DNA of 64,000 nucleotides from Topomyia yanbarensis (taxonomy: Eukaryota; Arthropoda; Insecta; Diptera; Culicidae). Positions 2,630 through 56,870 of this stretch are shown one piece after another. Numbering within the stretch: position 1 is the first letter of the stretch; each line of letters begins with the position of its first letter. Under the pieces are notes generated by a model. That model saw nothing but the letters and a program-made list of their open reading frames with translations. It was not told where the DNA came from and searched no databases. The stretch covers positions 2,728,001-2,792,000 of the forward strand of contig NC_080672.1 in NCBI RefSeq assembly GCF_030247195.1, read 5' to 3'. A program made the position numbers and the translations under genes.

Positions 2630-3640
2630 CGATAAAACAAACCTAGTCACAAAAGCGAATATCGCGATCATCCGAGATTTTGCAAACACAAAAACGCCCC
2701 GATGATTAGGTGGACATCTTATTATCCAGAAGACGCTACCATCAATCCAAGCAGCTAAGGTCCATACTATCAGCTGGACATTCAAAAATTAAAAAAACGA
2801 CGCTCGTGTACAATAGTTAACACGTTCTAGGTCGATGTGACCGGGGACTCTAGTGATATAGATGAACTCCCTCTTCATGCATCTGAACCGTATACTGAAA
2901 ATGGGAGCAGTCTCACGGTCCTCTATTTTCCTTTCTCGACTCGTGTTACCCTGGCTGTGTCACAGTCACACAAAGAAGCGGTTTAGCTAAGGCATAGATA
3001 ATCGAATGAAGAGTGGAAATATACTCGATTATCTCATTCGCGCCGTCATGCAAATATTACATAGAAACGCTCGTGTCTTTCACCATTAAACAAACCTGGT
3101 CACAAAAGTGAACATGCAATCGCAATCATGCGAGATTTCGCAAACACAAAATCAACCCGATGATGGAGTGAACATCTTAACACTTATAAGTCTATAAAGG
3201 CGGTCTCAAGAGCGTGCATGCAAGCGCCCGTTTTCGCGCGATCATGAATCGGCCACGTCCGGAAGTCGCTACCGTCGATCCTAGCAGCAAGTCCATGTCA
3301 TCAGTTGGACATACACAAAGTTAAAATAAATGACGCTCGTGTACACTAGACAACACTTTTTTTAGTTCGATATGTCCGGGGACTCTAGTGATATGAAAGA
3401 ATTCACTCCTCTTGCGTCTGAACAGTAAAATGAAAATTTAAAAATAAAAATGTGCGTCGAATTCATGGTCCATGCGATCATTCAAGTATACACATCCGAA
3501 TATTCGAATGGTCGCACGGTAATACAGTAGAAATTCTACACACAAACAAACGCTTACGCGATCGAACACGTTAAAATACAGACGCTCGAATCTTTCGCGA
3601 TGATACACGTAATTGCACTCCTACTGCACTATTAAGTTTA
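2630..3640 (+). mobile_element. Two decayed tandem units of the long tRNA-headed retroposon
   Basis: Modules shared with 19,660-21,160 occur in the same order: AAACCTGGTCAC, a CGCAAACA...GATGATTAGG block, CGGTCTCAAG, ATCATGAATCGG plus CACGTCCGGAAGTC, GATCCTAGCAGC, CAGTTGGAC, ACACTAGACAACAC, GGGGACTCTAGTGATAT and a final TTCGCGATGATACACG. GACTCTAGTGATAT occurs at about 2,846 and 3,380, so this is about two units with a 535-bp spacing. A copy of the 520-720 segment (2,925-3,105) lies between them. No tRNA head and no A-tail are present. Confidence 0.65.
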
Positions 3641-3649
3641 AATTGCGCA

Positions 3650-4375
3650 GTTGTTCGCAAACTAAATAAATCCTTCAAATGGCAAGCTAATGACGCTTGC
3701 AACTATTTTTAATGTTTCAAAGCATTGTCGTGATGGCAAACAGCTGGAATATAAAAAGAAATGCGATCGCCCACCAAAGTGAGGTGCCGAAACCAAGAAA
3801 AATGTACTATCGAGTATCAAAAACAGTGTCGGATATTCAATACGCAAATTTGCACGGAAATTTCAATCTAGATTATCCACGACATTTTGAGGAAAAACTA
3901 CGTATTTATTCATAACAGTAAGTGGGCACCAAAATATCCCAATTTGCTGCCGTACACTTCACCGTAAACACATTGCGAACGAAACGATGGCTATTAAAGA
4001 CTATGTTGAAGCAACACTGGATGATGTAGAATTCGACGACACATCCATATTCGAACCGAAGTTGTTGATGTGGCTAGCCCTTTCTGAGAAGGATGTTTCA
4101 GTGCCTCTGATCCTTCCAAACAAAGCTGAATACAGATTGATACAGATAATAACATCAGTGAATGTTTGCCGAAATTAAAGCAAATCATCGAAAAGTACTG
4201 CGCTCTTGAAAAATGCATAGGTAGGCCGGATGTTTCAAGCTGCCATTATGCGAAAAAGGGGTTGGCTAAAAAAAAACAAAAATTTGTACTGGAAAGAACA
4301 ACCTTCCTGAAGTGTCACAAATAGCAAAAAAAATCTGACCGAAAACACGAAAAAAACCATGTTTTTGAAAAAAAA
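3650..4375 (+). pseudogene. Tc1/mariner-type transposase relic, copy 2
   Basis: This is a homologue of the 1,850-2,470 relic. It preserves more of the catalytic core. The frame from 3,987 reads KDYVEATLDDVEFDDTSIFE, then PKLLMWLALSEKDVS, which is the mariner-like stretch around the DDE/D core (V-x-F...K-x-x-WLA-x-S). It continues in shifted frames as PNKAEYR...YR, KCIG...FQAAIMRK and GWLKKNK. At least three frameshifts or stops break it. The pairing with copy 1 suggests either two insertions of one family or a local duplication that also included the retroposon fragments. No TIRs seen. Confidence 0.6.
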
Positions 4376-12775: not shown

Positions 12776-13129
12776 AATGTTCAATTTTTCAATGCTGCCA
12801 AAACCCTCCCCTGGGTTGATGGGTCTGACAGTATCGCAACATCATCAAGCATATCTATGGATCAGTTTTAAAAAACAGGAAATGATTGCTTTGAGACGGT
12901 TATTGCAGTACGCCTCGTTAGTGGTGCATCGGGCAGACCGAGAGGGCATATGGGCTGTTTTGTTTTGTGTTTTTCCATTCTCTGCACCTGTCGAAACTAA
13001 CGATGAACCACTAGCCTGTGCATGCTGGTGTGGCAGGGTCGACGTAGATTGACTTGCTGTGGGCCATGTTTGCAAAAATTGTTCCACAGCTTAATACACT
13101 GAAGTTTTTTTTATGCGGGGGATACGTAC

Positions 13130-13320
13130 CGCATAAAAAAAAATCCGCATAAAAAAAACCGCATAACTTTGAAAATCCGCATAAAAAAACCGCATAACTT
13201 TGAAAATCCGCATAAAAAAAACCGCATAACTTTGAAAATCCGCATAAAACAAAACCGCATAACTTTGAAAATCCGCATAAAAAACTGCATGATTTTGAAA
13301 ATCCGCATAAAAAACACATA
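13130..13320. repeat. Left subterminal ~32-bp tandem array
   Basis: Repeats of CCGCATAACTTTGAAAAT followed by CCGCATAAAAAA with small length changes in the A-run. Confidence 0.9.
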
Positions 13321-13554
13321 AGGTGTGAAATATTCATTATTAAGAGCCATAGTACTCAAGGAAGAGCAAGGATTTGAAGTAAGAAAGTTTAGAGAAAAGC
13401 GTGGAGTAGGGTATCATGAGCAAGCTTAGAGTTTCATGGCTACTTAACTCTTTTTCTTCTGCAACGCAGGAGTCAGGATCTTTTGGCATTAAATGCGAAT
13501 CACCTGAGTCTGCGACATGTCCAGACAAGCGCAAAGTCACTTAATGACTTATGC

Positions 13555-14210
13555 TATCGGAACCGTGACTCTCTGGAATCGCAAGACTGACCTCGGCACC
13601 TAACCGACCAGCATCGAGATAACGATTTCGAGAGAAATTTCAACGTCGGGAAATTTCTCCGTCGGAGTAGACTAGGCCCACCGCCGGGGACTAGTTCGAA
13701 TAGATCGGGAAGTAGCTCCGGCAGATGCTCATCGGGACGCCTGTCACCTGGAAGTTACCTTCCACCCAGAATCGTAGGACCGACCTCGGCATCTGCCCGG
13801 GTTGTATCGGTTTCGGAAGATCTTCCACTGCCGGGGAACTCTTCGTCGGAGTAGGAAAGATCCACCGCCGGGGACTATTCCGAGTAGTCCGTAGTGAATC
13901 GCCGGCTTGAATCATCGGGGCACCAGTGAACTGGACGCAATCCTACACCGGGAATCGCTGGACTGACCTCGGCATTTTGCCGGACTGCATCTAAGGAAGA
14001 ATAACGCGTCCGTCAACGGTAGCGTGAGACATTCTTTCGTCGGGGAACTCTCCACCGTCAGGGACTACGCCGAGTAGCACCGAACACGACAAACCACCAG
14101 GTTCGTCGGGGCACCAGTGAACCGGAAGCCACCCCCCAACCGGAATCACCGGATCGGCCACGGCATCCAACTGGTCAACGTAGAGAGGAGGGCATGTAGG
14201 ATATAATGCC
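13555..14210. repeat. GC-rich ~190-bp tandem repeats inside the transposon
   Basis: About 3.4 units. The anchor GACTGACCTCGGCA (or a close variant) occurs at about 13,585, 13,778, 13,961 and 14,151, giving spacings of 193, 183 and 190 bp. Each unit has CGTCGG...GGGGACTA...GAGTAG and TCGGG(A/G)C..C..GTGAACTGG-type blocks. Composition is far richer in GC than the host element. Tandem repeats of this size are known in the 5' untranslated regions of some LINEs, so this may be a retrotransposon promoter fragment; that is inference. Confidence 0.8.
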
Positions 14211-14814
14211 GTGCAGGACTGATATGGCGGTTATTAGACAAGCGAAATCTAGCACGACCAGCTAGACCTGGAATCAAGTGACGTGCATTAGCACGCCTCC
14301 CCCCGAAGTAGTCATGTTAAATGGAATTCGGGGGATCAGGCAAATGTCGGACTTTTTGGTGGAGTTTAGAGGAATAGGGTTCAGAGTTATCTTCTCTGTT
14401 CAGAGTCCCTGACTCTGGCACACGATGGACGAAATCGGTAGTATGGTCTAACTACTGAACGTGTGCCGGGTCGGCGTAAAAGTTTTATCACCAAGTAAAA
14501 AAAAATACACGCTCAGAGACTTTTTTCCGATCTCGCCGAATTGAGTCGAATGATATAAGAGATTCGGCTCTGTGGGCCTCCGACCGATTGCATAAGTTTT
14601 ATTATGAGAAAGGTAAAAATGTATTCAGTCATTTTCTGTTTTTATTTTCACTGCATCAAGAATGCTTCTCATATCCTTAACCCAAAGACTAGTAATTTAT
14701 AACCTAAAATAAAAATATGAACATTTTATGTCTTTTGTTTAAGCATGTGCATTCATGAGGATCTATCTTTCGATAAAAGTCGCTTCAGGTGATGCCCTAG
14801 AAATTAAAAGGAAA

Positions 14815-14937
14815 CTGCATAAAAAGAATCGCATAACTTTGAAAATTCGCATAAAAAACTGCATAATTTTGAAAATCCGCATAAAAAAGTCGCATAAAAA
14901 AAATCCGCATAAAAAAACCGCATAAAAAAGACTTCAG
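14815..14937. repeat. Right subterminal tandem array
   Basis: Same GCATAAAAAA / CATAACTTTGAAAAT units as the left end, in the same orientation except for the terminal inverted repeat. Confidence 0.85.
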
Positions 14938-15995
14938 TGTATCGGTGTTGGTGGAAACGACTCACAGTGGAGGTCACTGTGTGTCGATTTATCAGTCGAC
15001 TTCGTTATCGCGTACAGGCTCATTAATTAAAGAAATGGAAAAGCAGAAGTCTATTAGTAGTCGTTTTGTAATAATTATAGGTTTTAGTACTAGCGTGCAA
15101 TGGTTATGTGCTAGTCGTATATCTATATAGCGTATAGCAGACGCGACAAACACGTTAACATACTAACGCTTGAGCTTCTCGTCCCTAGCAGCATAGGTTC
15201 ATTTCTTCAGTTGAACCAATCAAAAAAATGACGCTCATGTCCATTAAACAACGCGTTTCATGGCGACATGATTGGGAACCCTAGTGATATGGGGAATCTC
15301 ACTGTTTTCTAGCATTCGGCACGTCAACATACAAACGCTTAAGACCTTTGCGATCATCCACGCACACCAAAACCCGTGGTTTCGCAAACATGAAAACACA
15401 AAGTTTTAACACTAATAAACTTATAACAGCGGTCTCAAGTGGGAACCTACAAACGCCCATGTTCACGCAATAATGCATCGGTCAAGTCCGGAAATATCTA
15501 CCTTCAGTCTTAGCATACTAGGTGCATGCTTTCAGTTGAACCACAAAAATTCATTAGGTAACACGTTCCATGGCAACTTTGTCACTCTCTTCTAGCATCT
15601 GAACCGTACACCGTACACGAAAATTAAGCATTAGATTCACGGTACGCGCGCGATCATCCGAGAACACACCCGAATATGTGAATGGTCACACGGTTATAAA
15701 TCGAATACATACACGTTAGCACAGGCGACATACAAATGCCCAAGCGATCGAACACGTTAACGTACAAATGCTCGAGCCTTCGCGATAATACACGCGATCG
15801 TGAAGTTCCTACACCCGCACATAGCTGAGCCGTACAATGAATATCACATTCAGAATCACGTTCCGCTGTAATTGGCCTTAAGCAGTGTTTTAGTGAGTAA
15901 CATTTCCCGTCTCGCTTGCATTTGTAGCGAGTGTTTCTGACGGGGAGCCCTTCCGAAACCCTGGCTCTACAGCTCCTGTGGGACAACTCGCAAAA

Positions 15996-16900
15996 AAATC
16001 AATGCCTCCGAAACACCTTTTATGTGAGCCCTGAATGCACCGAAAAATTTATGTGCCGAAACCACTTGTGTGAGCTGGCGGAAAATTTTTACATTATATT
16101 AAAATTACTTTCTCCAACGACGTACGTAGGATTTTATTCTCTTCCGTCAATAATTTTTATTCAATGAGCAATTTTGTTTCGATTTCAAAAACATTTTCAT
16201 GTTTTTCTGTTCAAAAGTGTGCCAAGTCGTGAAAAATCAATATAGCAAACAAAAACTCAACGTACTTCTAAAGAATCTAAATGACTTTAGTTTTTGGTTC
16301 TAGGCCAAAGGTCACGTGAGATAGATTTCCGATCGCGGACACTTTCAAAAAAAAAACTCGCCAGCGGGAAAATACTGCACAGCCGCCATCTTGTGATTGA
16401 ATCAATAGAAAACATTACTTTCTGTATCTCACATTTTCTATCATATATCGCATTCTACAGGAACTCGATTTATCCCTTCATTACTTTAAGAAAAATTTCC
16501 GCGATATGCCTGTTTGTCGCGCACTAAATAATCGAAATTGGTTATTCACCAAGAATTTTATTGATTTTCTTAAAACTGGTCAAAACTGTCAACCTTGGCA
16601 AAAAATCAAAACATAATTGTCACGACAAACCAGTGTGAACAATAAAGCATCGGTTGTTTTGTGAAAAACACACTTCGGTACAATAAAAAGACCGTTTATT
16701 TGTCCGATTAGTGCTCGCGAAGTGAAACATATATTGCCGGTACAACGTTACCTTCATCTAATTCCACCACCTACGTCATTCCGTATTGATAGCGTTGCTT
16801 TGTTATGCTTAACAACATGCCGCTGACAAGTATAATGTTAGAGTCGAAATCCTCGACTACATGATCTATCGCCGTATACTTACGATAAGTTCATTATAAC
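15996..16900. other. No gene seen
   Basis: AT-rich. No terminus or domain recognised. Confidence 0.4.
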
Positions 16901-18990: not shown

Positions 18991-19016
18991 TGTTTATTCT
19001 TTAAAAAACGTCAATG
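18991..19016 (+). repeat. Left 26-bp target-site duplication of the retroposon
   Basis: Begins TGTTTATTCTTTAAA and ends ACGTCAATG. Identical to 21,181-21,206, directly next to the tRNA-like head. Confidence 0.95.
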
Positions 19017-19092
19017 GGGGTGGGCGTAGCGTAGTTGGTAAATCGATTGCCTTGTACGCAGCGCACCTGGGTTCGAGTCCCGACCCCGCACA
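19017..19092 (+). promoter_or_regulatory. tRNA-like head with Pol III A and B boxes
   Basis: An A box TAGCGTAGTTGG (19,029-19,040) fits TRGCNNAGYNGG exactly, and a B box GGTTCGAGTCC (19,070-19,080) fits GGTTCGANTCC exactly. An anticodon-like loop CTTGTAC sits between GATTGC and GCAGC, with TGT in the anticodon position. The acceptor arm does not pair well, so this is a tRNA-derived promoter rather than a working tRNA. It drives plus-strand transcription through the retroposon. Confidence 0.85.
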
Positions 19093-19659
19093 TAGGGGTA
19101 GAAAAAAAAACCCTCTCGCAGGTTGATGGGATTGACGGTATTGTAAACATCATCAAGCCACAATATATTCAATAGAGTTATCTAAATATAAGGACCTTCG
19201 CTCTTTTTAGTTTTTATTTGCACCAAGTTCTACTACTAGAGGTTAATTAGTTCTCATGTTAATAATCCACCAAACATTATGACTACTGAGGATTTGATTT
19301 ATATAAGAAGCCCGCTTCAAGATGTTGATTACAATACGCCTCGATAGTGGTGTGTCGAGGAGGCCGGGAGGGCTGATATGAGCCTTTTGTTTGTTCTATA
19401 CCTTTCCTCTATTCACCAGCTCATAACCAACAATCAACCAGTAACAAATAGATAATTGAGAAAGGATGTGCTATGTGTGGTGATTGGCTATTCAAGTATT
19501 AGTAGTGTTTGAAGTACTAATGTATGTCTCTTGTGATGATCATAATTTCAGCTGTATCTTGTACCTATCTAATCTATTACGTCTCTCATATATTGTCTTT
19601 TATTTCTTCTTTTCGAGTAGTATACTGCCATTCTACACCCGCCTTCAGCTGAATCAACA

Positions 19660-20990
19660 ACGATGGTGATAGTGAACGTCTTAACACTCACACATTCTCA
19701 AACGCGGTCTCAGCGGGAACCTACAAAAATCCCATTGTGCACGCGATTACGAATCGGTCACGTCCGAAAGTCTATCCTTGATCCTAGAAGCCTAGGTCCA
19801 TGCCTTCAGCTGGACCAATTAAGAAAATACGCCCATACCTATTAGACAACACGTCTCATGGCAACATGACCGGGAACCCTATCGATATAAACGATCCCAC
19901 TCTCTGCCAGAATTCAAACCGCGCACTGAAAATTTAATATCAGACTCACGGTTCGCGCAACCATTCAAGAACACACGTTACAAAATCACGTCAGCGCACA
20001 AACGTTAGAGCCCCTCGCGATTTTCCAAGCAACCTACGAACTCGCAAACATGATTACACCCCGGTGATAAGGTGAAAATCTCAGCACTCATAAACTTACC
20101 AACACGATCTCAAGTGTCAACCTACAAACTCCCGCGCTCGCGCCATCATGAATCGGGATCGTCCGGAAGTATCTATCCTCGGTACAAACAATCTAGGTCC
20201 TTGTTAACTATTAAAAAAATAATAAAATTGAAAAATAACTACCATATCCACTAGACAAAACGTTCCATGGCGACATGACCGGAAACTCTAGTGATATGGG
20301 GTAACTCTCTCCCTGTCAGAATGTGATCCGTACACCGAAAACTAAAGATCAGAATGACGGTCCGCGAATATATAAATCGCCGCAGGGTTTCAAAATCGAA
20401 TTTATACACGCGAAGTCACACGCGAGCACACGGGACAAACACGTCAACATACGAACGCTTAAGCCCTTCGCGATCATCTACGCACACCTATGCCTGCGAT
20501 CGCGTAAACTTGATAACACTGCGGCAATTGTGTGAACGTTTTAGTACTTACGAAGTTACAAACGCGATCTCAAACGCCAACCCGCAAATGCGCGATCATG
20601 AATCGGTCACGTCCGGAAATCTTTAACCTTTATTCTAGCAATTTAGGTCCATACATTCAGTTGGACCAATCAAAAAAAAATAAAGCTCATATCCACTAGA
20701 CCACGCGTTCTACGACATGATTGGGATCTCTAATGATATGGAAGAACCCACTTCCTTCTGGAATCTGAACCGTACACAAAAATTAAGTATCAGATTCACG
20801 GTCCGCGCGCGATCATTCTAGAACACACGCGAATATGCAAAGGCACACGGTTATGAAATAGAATTTATGCACGCGAAGTTACACGTTAGCACACGCGACA
20901 TACAAACGCACACGCGATCGAGCACATTAACGTACAAATATTCGAGCCCTTCGCGATGATACACGCGATTCCGAGTCCCTACGCCCGCAC
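19660..20990 (+). repeat. Three tandem ~400-440 bp units in the retroposon
   Basis: The block ATCG(G)-(T)CACGTCCG(G)AA occurs near 19,756, 20,155 and 20,598. Other landmarks recur in each unit: CCTAGGTCC, TTGGACCAA, CACTAGAC, GACATGACCGGGAA, CTAGTGATATGG and TCACGGTCCGCG. Units are diverged from one another, so the array is old, whereas the flanking duplication is perfect. Confidence 0.8.
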
Positions 20991-21162
20991 ATGCCTGAAC
21001 CGTACAAAGAATATCACATTCAGAATCACGGCCCGCTACAATTGGCCTATTGCAGTGTTTTATTGGGCGACATTGCCTGTCTCGTCTGCAAATTGTAGTA
21101 TGTGATTCTGACGGGGAGCCCTTCCGAGAACCTAGCTCTACAGCTCCAGTAGGACAACCCTC

Positions 21163-21180
21163 GAAAAAAAAAAAAAAAAA
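21163..21180 (+). other. A18 tail of the retroposon
   Basis: Eighteen A immediately before the right target-site duplication. Confidence 0.9.
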
Positions 21181-21206
21181 TGTTTATTCTTTAAAAAACG
21201 TCAATG
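21181..21206 (+). repeat. Right 26-bp target-site duplication
   Basis: Exact copy of 18,991-19,016. Confidence 0.95.
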
Positions 21207-29433: not shown

Positions 29434-29438
29434 TAAGC

Positions 29439-29865
29439 TATTCTATTCTATTCTAACCCTTACACAGCCAGTATTGAAAAGCATCCTGGAAAACACTTCA
29501 GTTTTTCTGTAGTGTCTTTCTTGTCAACATTAATATTTGAAGCATATTATAATATATCGCAAATATTAAAACGGCCAGGCCTACTGTGCAGAGTTGGGTT
29601 TGAAGATGTTTCAATATTATACGGCAATTGAATTATTCATTTAATGAACAATTCAACCAATGAATCGTTTTGAAACTTGAATGAGGAAGAAACGAGGACA
29701 ACCGTACCGACCGTTTCAGTTTAGAGGGGGTTAGAATAAAACGTTGGGAGTAACTATGCTAAGAAGGTTAATGTCACTCCTTTGGTCCTTTGCGATGGGA
29801 CAAAGGTATTTACACCTTGCCCTGACTCATTGAGCCTAGGTTATAGCGCCTTTACTCGCTCTCCT
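29439..29865 (-). mobile_element. AATAG-tailed retroelement, copy 1
   Basis: On the plus strand it starts with (CTATT)n, then CTAACCC(T)TACACAGCCAG and continues nearly identically to 50,617-51,026 and 36,490-36,838. On the minus strand the element therefore ends in GGGTTAG followed by AATAG repeats, a typical 3' tail of a LINE or SINE. This copy extends further 5' than the others (beyond 29,860) but the true 5' end is unclear. No coding sequence seen. Confidence 0.75.
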
Positions 29866-35164: not shown

Positions 35165-35908
35165 CATATACGTACAAACGTACAAACGCTCGTTGCCTAT
35201 GCGATAACACAAACCTGGTCACAACCGCGAGCATGGAATTGCAATTATCCACACATTCTTACGTCCACTATCTCACCAACATTAAAACACCCCGGTAATT
35301 AAGTAAACGTTACAGTACTATAAATTTACAAACGCGGTCTCAGGAGTAAACATACAAACGCCCCTGTTCGCGCGAAAATCAATCGGTTACGTCCGGAAGT
35401 CCCTTTTTCCGGCCCTAATAGCATAGGTCAAATGCATTCAGGTGGACCAAACAAAAAAATTACGCTCACATCCACTAAACAACACATTCCATGGTGACGA
35501 AAAAATTCGAATTTATACACGCGAAGTCACATACACGCGCAAACAATCAGATTCACGGCCCACGCGCGATCATCTAAGAACACACGCGGATATGCAAAAG
35601 CACACACGGTCATAAATTAGAATTTATACACGCGAAGTTACATACACGTTAGCATGATCGAGCGCGTTCACGTACAAACGCTCGAACCATTCGCCATGAT
35701 ACACGCGATCGCGAACTCCCTACGCCTATACATATCTAAACCGTGTAATGAATATCACATTCAGAATGACGGCCCGCTACAATTGGCCTTAAACAGTGTT
35801 TTAGTGGCTGACATTTCTCATCTCGTCTGAATTTGTTAGTGAGTGATTCTGGCGGTGAGTCCTGTCCTAGCTCTACAGCTCCAGTGGGACAACTCTCAAA
35901 GAAAAATC
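35165..35908 (+). mobile_element. 3' part of the long retroposon, copy 3
   Basis: Landmarks in order: ACAAACGCTCG, AAACCTGGTCAC, CACCCCGGTAATTA, ACAAACGCGGTCTCA, CGGTTACGTCCGGAAGTC, TCAGGTGGACCAA, ACACATTCCATGG, GATTCACGGCCCACGCGCGATC, then the 3' segment TCACATTCAGAATGACGGCC to CCAGTGGGACAACTCTC and a short A-rich tail. The 5' head is missing. Confidence 0.7.
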
Positions 35909-36085: not shown

Positions 36086-36493
36086 AAGAGCTTTTCTATA
36101 TTGTCCCCCATCTTGTAAATAGAATTGTATCCCTAGTTTTAAAACATCTGTGAAATTTTTCATAAATATTTGTTCCCCCTTTTGTGTACCAAACTATATT
36201 GTTAGTTTTAAGATAACTGTAAATATTTCCTAAAAAACTATTACTATTGAATTCCTTGTTTTAAAAATTTTCATAAAAAAAAATCTTTTGCCCCCTCTCT
36301 TATATATAGATTTTTTTTTTCTAGTCTTAAGATAGCTGTAAAAATTTTTCTCTTTTATAAAAAAAATATTTCAGCATTGTAACCTCCTAGTTTTAAGATA
36401 TTCAAAATGCAAAAACAAAATAATTCGGCACCGCCAAGCTAACGCATTTGTGCCTATCAAATAAACGAAATGAAAAAAAAAGAGCTTTTCTAT
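36086..36493 (+). mobile_element. 5'-truncated Jockey-type LINE tail with 14-bp target-site duplication
   Basis: AAGAGCTTTTCTAT occurs at 36,086-36,099 and 36,480-36,493. The inserted ~380 bp is T/A-rich untranslated sequence with repeated CCTAGTTTTAAGATA phrases, then GGCACCGCCAAGCTAACG, a signal AATAAA (36,460-36,465) and an A9 tail that merges with the duplication. This ending is like the 3' untranslated end of Jockey-clade elements in mosquitoes as I recall; the 5'-truncation and duplication are seen directly. Confidence 0.8.
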
Positions 36494-36838
36494 TCTATTC
36501 TATTCTAACCCTTGCACAGCCAGTATTGAAAAGCATCCTGGAAAACACTACAGTTATTCTATAGTGTTTTTCTTGTCAATATTAATATTTCAAGCATATT
36601 TTCATATGTCGCAAATATTAAACCGGCCAGGCCTACTGTGCAGAGTTTGGTTTAAAGATGTTTCAAAATTAAACGGCAATCAAATTATTCAATTAATGAA
36701 TAATTTGAATGACGAATCGTTTTGAAACTTAAAAGAGGAAGAAACGAGGACAACCGTACCAACCGTTTCCGTTTAAAGGGGATATGATAAATCGTTGGGA
36801 GTGACTTTGCTAAGAAGGTTAATGTCACTCCTTAATAT
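36490..36838 (-). mobile_element. AATAG-tailed retroelement, copy 2
   Basis: Same sequence as copies at 29.44 and 50.62 kb. Its CTATT tail directly abuts the LINE tail's right duplication, so the LINE inserted at the very end of this element. It is 5'-truncated at about 36,838. Confidence 0.75.
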
Positions 36839-46783: not shown

Positions 46784-47089
46784 GGCTGCCCGTTTTGCCC
46801 GTTCAAAAGTGATTACTTTTGAAACTTTCGCTAATTTTATCAAAAAACTTCTAATTTTATTCCAACAACTTCTAAGTGGCAAGAAATAGACCAACGTTCT
46901 CTTCTGGAAAGATGCGTATCTTGCCAAGATGAATGACTTTTTGGGACATTCTGAAGCTTTATCTACGATATTTGCGAAATTGTGTTAGAAAGTCTCAGTA
47001 AAAAAGTTGTTAAAAAAGATTCCTTAGAATCATTCACAAGTAACGGTCAATAATATAAATATGAACAAAATTTATCAATACTTAATTAA
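46784..47089. other. No gene seen
   Basis: AT-rich spacer. Confidence 0.4.
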
Positions 47090-48245
47090 AGAATATATAA
47101 CAGTAATGAAAAATGTTTGGAATATGACAACTGGTAATGGAATAAGAAATGGAATCACTTAAAACGGAAAATGTCTCAAAACAGAAGAAATGATATAGAA
47201 CAAGGAATGAATAAATAGATAAATAAAAAGTTCATAGAATAGAAATCGAACAAATGAAACAATTTAGAATTGAAATAATAGAAATGGAATTATATGGAAG
47301 CAATGAAACTGAATAGATTGAAGAAAAAACGAAAACAATAACAAGTGGAAATAGTCCAAAAACAGACAAAAGTGAAATCATAGAAAATATAGAATAAAAT
47401 CAAAATGCTAAGCAAAATGGGAATATTACAATAAGAAAAAAACTAGAGAAAATTTAAAAAAATGAATGGGCTAAATGAATGAATAAAGTAATATAAAATG
47501 AAAATGGAAAATATTTCAAATTTGATGAATTGGAAAAGAAAACAAAATGAACATAACGGAAAAAGGTTCAATTGCAAAAATCAACAAAATAAAAAACAAA
47601 ATTCAAAATTGTTTAAATGGATAAAACTAGAAAATACTAGAGGTAATGGAGTATAGCAATAAAGAAAAATTAGGCCATCCGAAAAACACACAAAAGCAAA
47701 GCATAACATAAAACAGCGAAATAGCAAACAAACAAAAATCACGATCCAAAAAAATAATCTTGTTTTATGGAAGTTGGAAAATATGAAAATAATAGACGAA
47801 AAAATAATAGTAAATAAAAGTTTATGAAATGAAATAAAATTAATGAAATCAATTAAACAAACGGAAGAAAAAGAAACAAATAAAACAATTGATAAAATAG
47901 AAAATCGAAATAAAAATAAAAATATGTAACATATTGAAAAAATGAGAGAAAAATAAAAAAACAAACTTGGTCAAAATAGAAAAATGAAAATATGAAGCAA
48001 AAAATAAAAGAGAAAAATGGAAAATTAGAATAAAATGGAGAACACAAAAATCGAAAAAGGAACATTAAGAATGCAGGGAATTAAAATTTGAAACAATAGA
48101 AAAAGAGAAAAAAATGAATGGATTATTTGAAAATATAGAATTTGTCGGACGACATGTAAAAAAATGAAAAAAATATTCAAATTGACACACAAAGATAGCT
48201 GAAGACGAAAAAACGGGTTTGGAACATTATCCAAAAGAAACACGA
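47090..48245. repeat. Degenerate A-rich tract (AAATGGAAAATAG-like)
   Basis: More than 1.1 kb in which short phrases such as AATGGAAA, AAATAGAAAA and AATAAAATGA recur without a fixed period. The plus strand is strongly purine-rich. The long Phe-rich minus frames here are composition artefacts. The tract at 52,195-52,720 has the complementary composition. Confidence 0.75.
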
Positions 48246-48399: not shown

Positions 48400-49495
48400 C
48401 AAACTACATAATGACATACGAACGCCCACGCGATAAACAGAACGCGCCCAAACATACATAAACATACATACAAACGCTTCAGTGTTTCGCGATAAACGCT
48501 ATGAATCGTAATCATGAATCACGAAATCATGAATTGTACTAGTCCAGAAGCTCCCACTCTAAAATATAGATATTATATACACTAGATAACAAGTTTTAAG
48601 GCGCCATAGCTTGGGTCTCCAGTATGAAAGAAGAGCTCACATTCTCAGAGCGACGATCCGTGCGAACATTCAGAAGCCCATGCGAATATGTAAGATCAGG
48701 ATTATACCAACGAATTTATATGCGCGAAGTTACATACACGCTACACACACACGCATGTTAACATACAAATACAAATACATGATCTCGCTCTTGTGATTAG
48801 ATGAATTGTCCTACGAAATTATAAACGCGATATCAAATTTCCACACAACAATGAATCCGTGTCCCAGAAGACCCCTAGCGTCGATGGTAACATCCTAGGT
48901 CCATTATTTCAGTAATTTATATTTAAAAAAATCGCTCATATACACTAGACAACAAGTTGCAGGGCACCACAATAGGAAACTCTAGTGATATGGGGAAACC
49001 CACTCTAGTATCTGAACTATACACTGAAAATTAAGTATCAGATTCAGGATCCGCGCGATCCAAGAACACACGCGAAAATACGGTTATAAAATCTTATTTA
49101 TACCCGCTGACACACGCTACACACGTAACGTAAACATACAAACGCTCGATCTCTTCGCGATTATACAAAAAGACGAACATGGCATCGCGATCATCCACGC
49201 ACAAGTACGTTTAAGATTGCGAAATAACCAAAACGCCTCAATGATTTAGTGAATGCTACAGCAGCTATTAAGTGATCAATGCGGGCTAAAGTGCGTACAT
49301 ATAAACGCTCATCCTACACGATTGTGAAGTCCCTAAGCACGCACATCTGAGCCACACAACAAATAACACAATCAAAATCACGACCCGCTGCCATTAATTG
49401 GCTCCAATCAATGTTTTAGTGAGTGACATTTTCTGTCTCGTCTGCAATTGTAGTGAGGGATTCTGACAGGGAGCTCTTCCAAGAACCAATAAAAT
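48400..49495 (+). mobile_element. Decayed copy of the long retroposon, copy 4
   Basis: Landmarks: ACATACGAACGCCCACGCG, TCCAGAAGC, ACACTAGATAACAAG, then a second round with CCATTATTTCAG, ACACTAGACAACAAG, GGAAACTCTAGTGATATGGG, GATTCAGGATCCGCGCGATC, AAGAACACACGCGA, AACGCTCGATCTCTTCGCGAT, CGACCCGCTGCCATT and GATTCTGACAGGGAGC. Both the head and the final A-tail are missing. Confidence 0.6.
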
Positions 49496-50593: not shown

Positions 50594-51049
50594 CTAAGCT
50601 AGCAGGATTAACGCTATTCTATTCTATTCTATTCTAACCCTTACACAGCCAGTATTGAAAAGCATCCTGGAAAACACTGCGGATATTCTTTAGTGTTTTT
50701 CTTGTCAACATTAATATTTGAAGCATATTACAATATGTCGCAAATATTAAAACGGCCAGGCCTACTGTGCAGAGTTGGGTTTGAAGATGTTTCAATATTA
50801 TACGGCAATTGAATTATTCATTTAATGACCAATTCAACCAACGAATCGTTTTGAAACTTGAATGAGGAAGAAACGAGGACAACCGTACCGCCCGTTTCAG
50901 TTTATAGGGGGTTATGATAAACCGTTGGGAGTGACTTTGCTAAGAAGGTTAATGTCACTCATTTGGTCCTTCGGGATGGGACAGAGGTATTTACTTTAGG
51001 CCTAGGTTAAAGCACCTTTACTCGCTCTAAGCTAGCAGGATTAACGCTA
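50594..51049 (-). mobile_element. AATAG-tailed retroelement, copy 3, with 23-bp target-site duplication
   Basis: A 23-bp direct repeat beginning CTAAGCTAGCAGGATTAACG occurs at 50,594-50,616 and 51,027-51,049. The 410-bp body (50,617-51,026) starts on the plus strand with TTCTATTCTATTCTATTC and ends at ACTCGCT. Read on the minus strand this is a retroelement with an (AATAG)n 3' tail. No reading frame; either a SINE or a 5'-truncated LINE. Confidence 0.9.
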
Positions 51050-54849: not shown

Positions 54850-54975
54850 AACTCATTAACATACAATCGCTCGAATCCTTCGCGATCATCCTCGCACACC
54901 CAGGCTTGCGAACTTTTATGTCCAATTCGCTCGGTCCTAGCAGCCTAGGTACAGGCCGTCAGTTGGTCTAATCTA
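54850..54975 (+). repeat. Small fragment of the long retroposon
   Basis: ACATACAATCGCTCGAATCC, TTCGCGATCATCCTCGCACA, GTCCTAGCAGCCTAGGTACA and CAGTTGG are retroposon unit landmarks in the usual order with a deletion between them. Confidence 0.6.
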
Positions 54976-56870
54976 ATATAAAATAGTTTACCAATTTTCA
55001 TTCAATTTCGACCTCCTAAATTTTCAAAAGCTTCCAAGCGGTTCCAAAAATTTTCAAAAGCGACGCAGAAAAACAAAAATTTTCGGCCTATTTCGAGCAA
55101 AGCCATCAATATGGAGCACTATCAGAACTGTAAAGCTTTGTGAAATTTTAATTATAGGTAAGCTGCAGTCTAGCCTGTAATACAATTTAAAGATAGGGGT
55201 TTGGAGGTGATGGACGAAGCATTTTGTTTTTCTGGAGATTTTGTGAAATCAGTTAACGCTAGGTATTTGAAAGCGACGTACGGAGGATTATTCCAGAAAA
55301 CTGTACGTATAGATCACTTTACTGAACAGACAATTTGTTAGAGAATTCAACCCGCCTATGTCATACAACAATGCGAATAATTTATGTGAATATTCTTTCC
55401 TTCTTTAACCGTTACAATTATTTTCGGCGGTTGGAAACTTTCCAAAAGATTCGACCAAAGTTCGATCGATCATATTTGATTGTCACTCACTTCATGCAAA
55501 CTCCAACCACAAAAAGTTAAAGTTAAAGAACTGTCTTTAAATCAGTTAATGCTAGGTTTGAGTAAAAAGGTGATTATCGAACTTTATAACCGGATACACT
55601 TCAAAGTATTAGCACCTCGAAAAACGTTTCTATGTAAAATTTAAGCTCAATCGGACATGGTAGAACAATGGAACCTGTGAATACTTCGAAAACTCAAATA
55701 TCATATCAACTCAAAAAATTTCCTTGCCCCAGAGGGATACATTTTTTTTAAATAACACCAAATCTCCACGGTTCTTTTTTTCTGAATGAGCTCAAATTTT
55801 GCTAGGTGACATTTTTCGAGGAGGTAAATCTTCTGAGGTATGGCTGGTTTGATAATTCAGGATGACCATACATATTGGCACTTTATCGCCTATCAAGACC
55901 TGTATACTGAGTCGACAATTTTTAGGAGTTGTGATCTGATTGGTGACAGCTATCTCGAAAATCCGCCCAGATATGTAAAGAATTGTAATATGCTGTCTAT
56001 ACCATGCAAATGGCGTTACTGGCGATAAGCCTTCTATGAAGGACTACAGTGTCTACATGCCCGCTCAATACATTGAGATCGATGGTGTAGTCACCAACTC
56101 AAATTTTTGCGTATATCTACTACTTTCACCAGTTAGTCAAAATTTTGAATGGTAATCGCACTGGATGGGACTCTCAACTCGTCTCGGTTGACCTTTGCCG
56201 GGACAGCTTTACGTTTGATTACGTTTTCTTTAACAAGAATTATTTGCATGTTCGGCTGTTTATTATCTATTACCATGCCCCGCGTACTAAGAGCGCCCAT
56301 GGAATCTGAAAGGACTCCTTAGAGTTTTAGTTGTACACCCCTTTGGTGTTTACCATGAATTTCTTTTCCAGTTGGACTTTTTAACCAATAATTTAGTGTG
56401 AACTCGGAAATGGCATAACTTATCCTCACTTATTTTATAAAACATATCAAGATTTCAGTACCCTCCTAAGGTTGGAACCCTTGCCGGGGGCCAACCGCAA
56501 ACTACGAGCCTACCTATAGTTCGGTCTAATTCCATAACATTTTACAACTGTATACGAGTGATTCAAATTCGAAAGCAACCGCAGAACATCCAATCATAAC
56601 TAATTATCGAATTTTTGTATATTAATGTCATTAATGATGATTTATCAAAAAATTACAACCATCAAATGATCCCTTTGCGTACTTTTAACTAACACATTCC
56701 ATATCTAACTCAAACATATCGCGCGCAATCAGAACCCACGAATGCACGGAGTATCAATCAATAAACAAGTAGCCTTTATCTATATCGATTCCCCCGATTA
56801 CAGTCAATAAAATAACCAACACATAACAAACAGTAAGCAAACAGAAGGGGAAAATTTTCTAAAAAGGAAC
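54976..56870. other. No gene seen
   Basis: AT-rich, with no frame, repeat end or RNA gene that I can support. Confidence 0.4.

Follow-up and report, generated by a model that had tools for sequence, protein, structure and literature searches.

A one-off fusion of part of a SINE with a 2-kb noncoding retroposon in Topomyia yanbarensis

We report a one-off fusion of part of a SINE with a copy of a 2-kb noncoding retroposon. The fusion lies in a 64,000-nucleotide stretch of a 1.168-Gb assembly (G000:C3:2728001-2792000, referred to here as the window), where a 26-bp perfect direct repeat (18991-19016 and 21181-21206) flanks a block of 2,164 bp. On the + strand this block consists of an 88-bp head (19017-19104), six A's (19105-19110), a 2,053-bp noncoding body (19111-21163), and a tail of 17 A's (21164-21180), which an earlier note on this DNA had counted as A18. 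The same note had described the locus as a tRNA-promoted, SINE-like element of more than 2 kb; the genome revealed instead that the headless body is the family and that the head is joined to it only here.

The bracketing repeat noticed earlier was borne out. The 26-mer has exactly two + strand occurrences in the window, at 18991 and 21181, and measures 28 bp (18989/21179) if two A's that are indistinguishable from the A-tail are counted. Its match score of 28 compares with a best of 8 for random pairs of window stretches (0/300 as high). A larger local duplication, which the earlier note had named as an outcome that would speak against it, was rejected as the source of the repeat, as a repeat finder lengthened the 26-bp match no further than a 36-nt pair, by way of A-rich bases. 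Head, A's, and the complete body all lie inside this one duplication and were therefore inserted together, in agreement with the earlier view of a single unit.

The body is a young 2-kb noncoding copy-and-paste family of its own. A genome search gave 44 matches among the best 40 of 7,382 candidates scored. Besides this copy, 37 places were near full length and 97-99% identical. Their matches open at query base 84-97, corresponding to CCCTCTCGCAGG at window position 19111. Two further copies matched as two pieces each, and the remaining matches were one of 80% adjoining the copy L007 and a short one of 79%. Because 37 other places show that CCCTCTCGCAGG is the true start of the family, we rejected 5' truncation as the cause of the headless state. 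This start, also given as CCCTCTCG, is pyrimidine-rich and fixed, and the 3' end reads ...CAACTCTCG-An. Pairwise identity among ten copies, including this one, was 98.7-99.9%. Genome pattern counts, with up to 2 mismatches allowed and controls of 0 each, came to 770 for a 5' 32-mer, 1,100 for unit 3, and 3,427 for a 3' 32-mer.

Some features of the distribution of copies were observed along the way. L007 is a copy inserted at the A-tail of an older, oppositely oriented copy, while those at C2:176.47 Mb and C2:310.77 Mb share the loss of 61 bp in unit 3 (query 1727-1787), as if they were either a sub-lineage or a duplicated locus. The 100 exact 5' ends listed for contig C1 extend to 176 of its 218 Mb; 45 of them are in the first 16 Mb, and each of the other ten 16-Mb bins contains 2-15. 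The window lies 2.7 Mb into C3. Young copies apparently cluster close to a chromosome end.

The head derives from a SINE that exists on its own in the genome: it corresponds to the first 88 bp of an element of ~165 bp and, among body copies, was found only here. Strict matches to the A-box (19027) and B-box (19070) motifs, in what we take to be their consensus form, are the sole ones on the + strand of the window, and they confirm the exact boxes previously seen at the opening of the block. The tRNA label of the head rests on these boxes: ARAGORN found 0 genes, Rfam at gathering scores gave 0 matches, and the head is not predicted to fold as a cloverleaf, although its fold is stabler than 197/200 shuffles. 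With 19017-19110 as the query, the locus and 39 other places were found among the best 40 of 57 candidates; the matches of these 39 stop at query base 84-90, and two SINE places match all 88 bp of the head exactly. We fetched 19 of the other places. They are ~165 bp long, most continue past base 88 as TTTTTCATA..., and they end in CGAAATAAAA or similar A-rich sequence; several have flanking repeats by eye, and three with common flanks represent a single locus. The donor of the head is accordingly a short dispersed element with boxes, a body of its own, and an A-rich tail, as expected of a SINE. At the fusion, the SINE breaks off one base before its first TTTTT, likely a Pol III stop, and AAAAAA stands where the SINE itself reads TTTTT.

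The junction between the two elements is private to the locus. A junction pattern allowing up to 3 mismatches occurred at 4 places in the genome, exact only here and with A-rich flanks in the other three. A 174-bp query across the junction matched end to end only here among the best 40 of 1,193 candidates, its other matches covering SINE or body alone. These counts rest on pattern and best-N searches, so that a chimera with another SINE break could escape the pattern, less so the 174-bp query. One weak match of that query is an 85% SINE piece ~93 bp upstream of the copy at C1:186.36 Mb, antisense to it. In 64 loci, representing 52 distinct copies, a SINE within 300 bp upstream was seen in this copy only, and the head is absent both from the 37 other near-full-length places and from the 300 bp upstream of the 51 other copies. 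A and B boxes, which a tRNA-derived SINE would carry at the 5' end of its copies, are not a feature of the 2-kb family. A giant tRNA-headed SINE family was therefore rejected, given that the body copies are headless and the junction occurs at one place. The earlier note had itself stated that its reading would fall if no other copy joined the head to the units; as far as was searched, the single exact junction is the one described here. The locus thus combines two separate elements, one duplication, and a junction found nowhere else, the makeup of a chimeric retro-insertion.

To characterize the family, 29 other copies were read at both ends: 9 chosen by score and 20 from the 100 listed exact 5' 32-mer places, all on C1, for which the start was fixed by selection and the duplication was not. 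A duplication ending no more than 2 bp from the start was present in 21 of the 29 (17-35 bp, median 22), and eight had no clean adjoining one. Additional sequence is present at both ends of L010, the duplication of L068 contains mismatches, and L081 is a weak case; L071 and L082 are sited in TA repeats, L072 and L078 are without the standard 3' end, and L076 shows T18 between duplication and start. A T-run in this position was also observed in L095 (about T9), and such runs could reflect either untemplated addition or another type of jump. At the 21 sites, the duplication opens with A in 19 (leading A's being partly ambiguous with the A-tail), T or C precedes it in 20, and T prevails further upstream; most targets consist of a T-rich stretch followed by a pyrimidine and AA.

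Among exact 3' ends, 50 of the first 100 in the list are paired with an exact 5' end at a distance of 1.9-2.3 kb. Six 3'-end places without a listed 5' end were fetched, of which four were longer copies of 82-98% identity; the two others were reduced to their final ~300 bp, and one of them had its own 17-bp duplication. This truncated copy and the imbalance of the ends (770 vs 3,427) fit LINE-type 5' truncation. Target duplications, an A-tail, and 5' truncation, the marks of TPRT, are all found in the family, upholding the earlier identification of a retroposon.

Within the body, three tandem units of about 330-480 bp, 66-72% alike, are followed by a part-unit and a 3' domain (20960-21163). 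Unit 1 (19651-19977) was delimited by its match to the unit model, and unit 2 (19987-20439) and unit 3 (20440-20922) by the repeat finder and the unit model. The earlier note was right in recognizing three diverged units and in considering them old, but its size of ~400-440 bp did not hold. An independent satellite as the identity of the units was rejected, since the unit-3 probe, the one unit probed, found fewer places than there are 3' ends (1,100 vs 3,427). Coding content was also rejected, in accordance with the missing reading frame noted before: the two longest frames gave no Pfam match above the cut-off, and the longest ATG frame in ten copies was 60-90 aa. The predicted RNA fold of the body 5' end was no better than shuffles, that of the 3' end displayed a two-sided change in 1/25 pairs over 4 sequences, and searches of viral contigs for exact patterns returned 0 and 0.

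The window itself contains relatives of the body. Copy B (12804-15998), an old full-length member, shares both its 5' and its 3' end with the body and is ~72% identical to it over the last 730 bp; two shared ends at this level of identity indicate that the lineage is old. A degenerate 16-bp duplication (13/16 alike; 0/300 random pairs as high) borders copy B at 12789 and 15999, and the idea that this copy was 5'-truncated was dropped once CCCTCTCGCAGG proved to be the true start of the family. Copy C (35175-35906) retains unit parts, the 3' domain, and a short A-run, and copy D (48545-49487) unit parts and the 3' domain; neither has a convincing duplication, 98/300 and 127/300 random pairs scoring as high, respectively. 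The 3' domain is common to copies B, C, and D and the body (copy E); E, B, and C finish in the same sequence plus A's, and D is without the last ~40 bp. Copy F (2662-3609) comprises unit parts only, and two short unit fragments are located at 54858-54983. All family pieces in the window (2662-54983) are on the + strand, in contrast to the even strands of 5' ends genome-wide (378 vs 392).

Other repeats were observed in the window. An element of ~1.85 kb with ~25-bp inverted ends (TACACTGAAGT...TTATGCGG) and CCGCATAA minisatellites inside both ends splits copy B at about 13095-14941, probably at a TA target. Another repeat, in three ~90% identical copies (29438-29862, 36484-36833, and 50613-51028), opens with (TTCTA)n on the + strand; a flanking direct repeat of about 22 bp, seen by eye at 50613-51028, gives this repeat the appearance of a retroposon whose tail, on the opposite strand, is (TAGAA)n. 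A 75% direct duplication (1839-2251 / 3661-4065) brackets the unit fragments of copy F, and the interval 47001-48000 is very A-rich (GC 0.228, AT skew 0.456).

As to the nature of the body, a real though tentative possibility is that it derives from a LINE, internally deleted and non-autonomous, of which 5' and 3' untranslated parts are left and whose old promoter-type repeats are the units. The A-tail, the duplications, and the coexistence of full-length and truncated copies are as in LINEs, but no LINE with the ends of the body was found. The places that bear on this, six fetched from the best 150 of 56,979 reverse-transcriptase places, yielded no helper LINE; they looked like LTR elements, which makes this a poor test, and had no match to the 3' ends of body or SINE. 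Elsewhere, G000:C73 has 886-aa reverse-transcriptase frames every ~11.1 kb (6670, 17814, 28937, and 40092), as if a retroelement were arranged in a tandem array.

We consider it rather unlikely that the body is a long-lived, purely noncoding lineage using a LINE in trans, in which the ~450-bp units would attract the LINE machinery like the VNTR of SVA, which is flanked there by Alu-like and SINE-R parts, and the locus would represent the gain of a Pol III promoter in one step. Still less do we favor processed copies (retropseudogenes) of one host noncoding RNA gene. Such copies would share the noncoding content, the fixed 5' start, and the A-tail, and only the 5' start hints at a promoter belonging to the body; however, copy B, with the same ends and about 28% different, and the 82-98% copies argue for sources that changed repeatedly over a long time, and no intron-bearing source was seen among the copies read for other purposes.

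The locus itself very likely arose by chimeric retroposition, in which body RNA was copied and a template jump to SINE RNA followed, all in one insertion. A noncoding RNA of ~2.05 kb, its 5' end fixed and its 3' end A-tailed, would be copied at the nicked target by a LINE-type reverse transcriptase (TPRT). On reaching the 5' end of the body RNA, the enzyme would switch to a short SINE RNA and copy it as far as the 5' end of that RNA, and a single 26-bp duplication would enclose the joint cDNA. That the SINE stops one base before TTTTT points to a short Pol III SINE transcript as the second template. The six A's at the join may be untemplated or an added tail; as they are absent from the SINE, they weigh against the jump by needing an added step, as do the missing terminal U's usual for a second template, if they were present there. 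The body RNA is an unlikely product of Pol III because of TTTTT at 19204 and 19211, in line with the earlier remark that Pol III would have to pass T-runs over 2 kb. The fixed pyrimidine-rich start suggests, as a prediction from sequence, an internal Pol II-type start as the putative promoter of the family RNA. A very improbable alternative is 5' transduction, a read-through RNA of a source body and a SINE upstream of it: the sense orientation, the complete SINE 5' end, and the A's at the join, as possible remains of the SINE A-tail side, would suit it, but the junction searches found the SINE-body order nowhere else in the assembly (a source could since have disappeared), the SINE part halts at base 88 of ~165, short of its own tail, and Pol III starting in the SINE would hit TTTTT at 19204.

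Chimeric retroposition by a template jump has been proposed for mammalian Alu/LINE-1 and tRNA/LINE-1 chimeras (PMC13174262); the fusion is an event of a recognized type between unexpected partners. The Alu/LINE-1 chimeras, as presented in that source, amount to 452 cases, mostly sense and with full-length Alu, whose partners were active simultaneously (PMC13174262). Like both kinds of mammalian chimera, the locus unites two retro-RNAs in one duplication with an A-tail; unlike the Alu/LINE-1 cases, the partner is a complete noncoding 2-kb retroposon, the SINE is cut at base 88, and the host is not a mammal (PMC13174262). PittSINE of passerine birds is similar in that a reverse transcriptase is proposed to have switched to a tRNA-type RNA, creating a new head, but that fusion founded a family, whereas the one here has no detected descendants (PMC5729268). 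The locus provides a base-resolution view of a reverse transcriptase joining two RNAs outside mammals and birds. The donor SINE resembles SINE200 of Anopheles gambiae, a tRNA-related SINE of about 200 bp with A and B boxes, and differs, by description, in its A-rich tail from the AAG-repeat tail of SINE200 (PMC2546427).

The noncoding 2-kb family, with its tandem units, holds more interest than the fusion. It may already be catalogued in Repbase or Dfam; the portions of the literature on similar families that we drew on cover Sadhu and primate VNTR elements, none recognized as the body family. Like Sadhu of Arabidopsis, the body is noncoding, carries poly(A), is flanked by target duplications, lacks Pol III motifs, and belongs to a diverged old lineage with an unclear helper, a likeness in layout (PMC2848041). 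Sadhu is described with duplications of 7-16 bp, average identity below 75%, and 39 related sequences in A. thaliana (PMC2848041); by that description, the 2.05-kb body with tandem units and the thousands of 3' ends set our family apart (PMC2848041). A looser likeness is to SVA/LAVA, described as specific to hominoid primates, which are noncoding, A-tailed, moved by a LINE in trans, and built around central tandem repeats (PMC4432496), although the units here, compared with SVA by description, are ~450 bp and diverged (PMC4432496). If the noncoding lineage is real, it would be an animal equivalent of Sadhu and SVA, present as hundreds of complete, near-identical 2-kb copies, and would offer a system for testing which features of a noncoding RNA attract a LINE.
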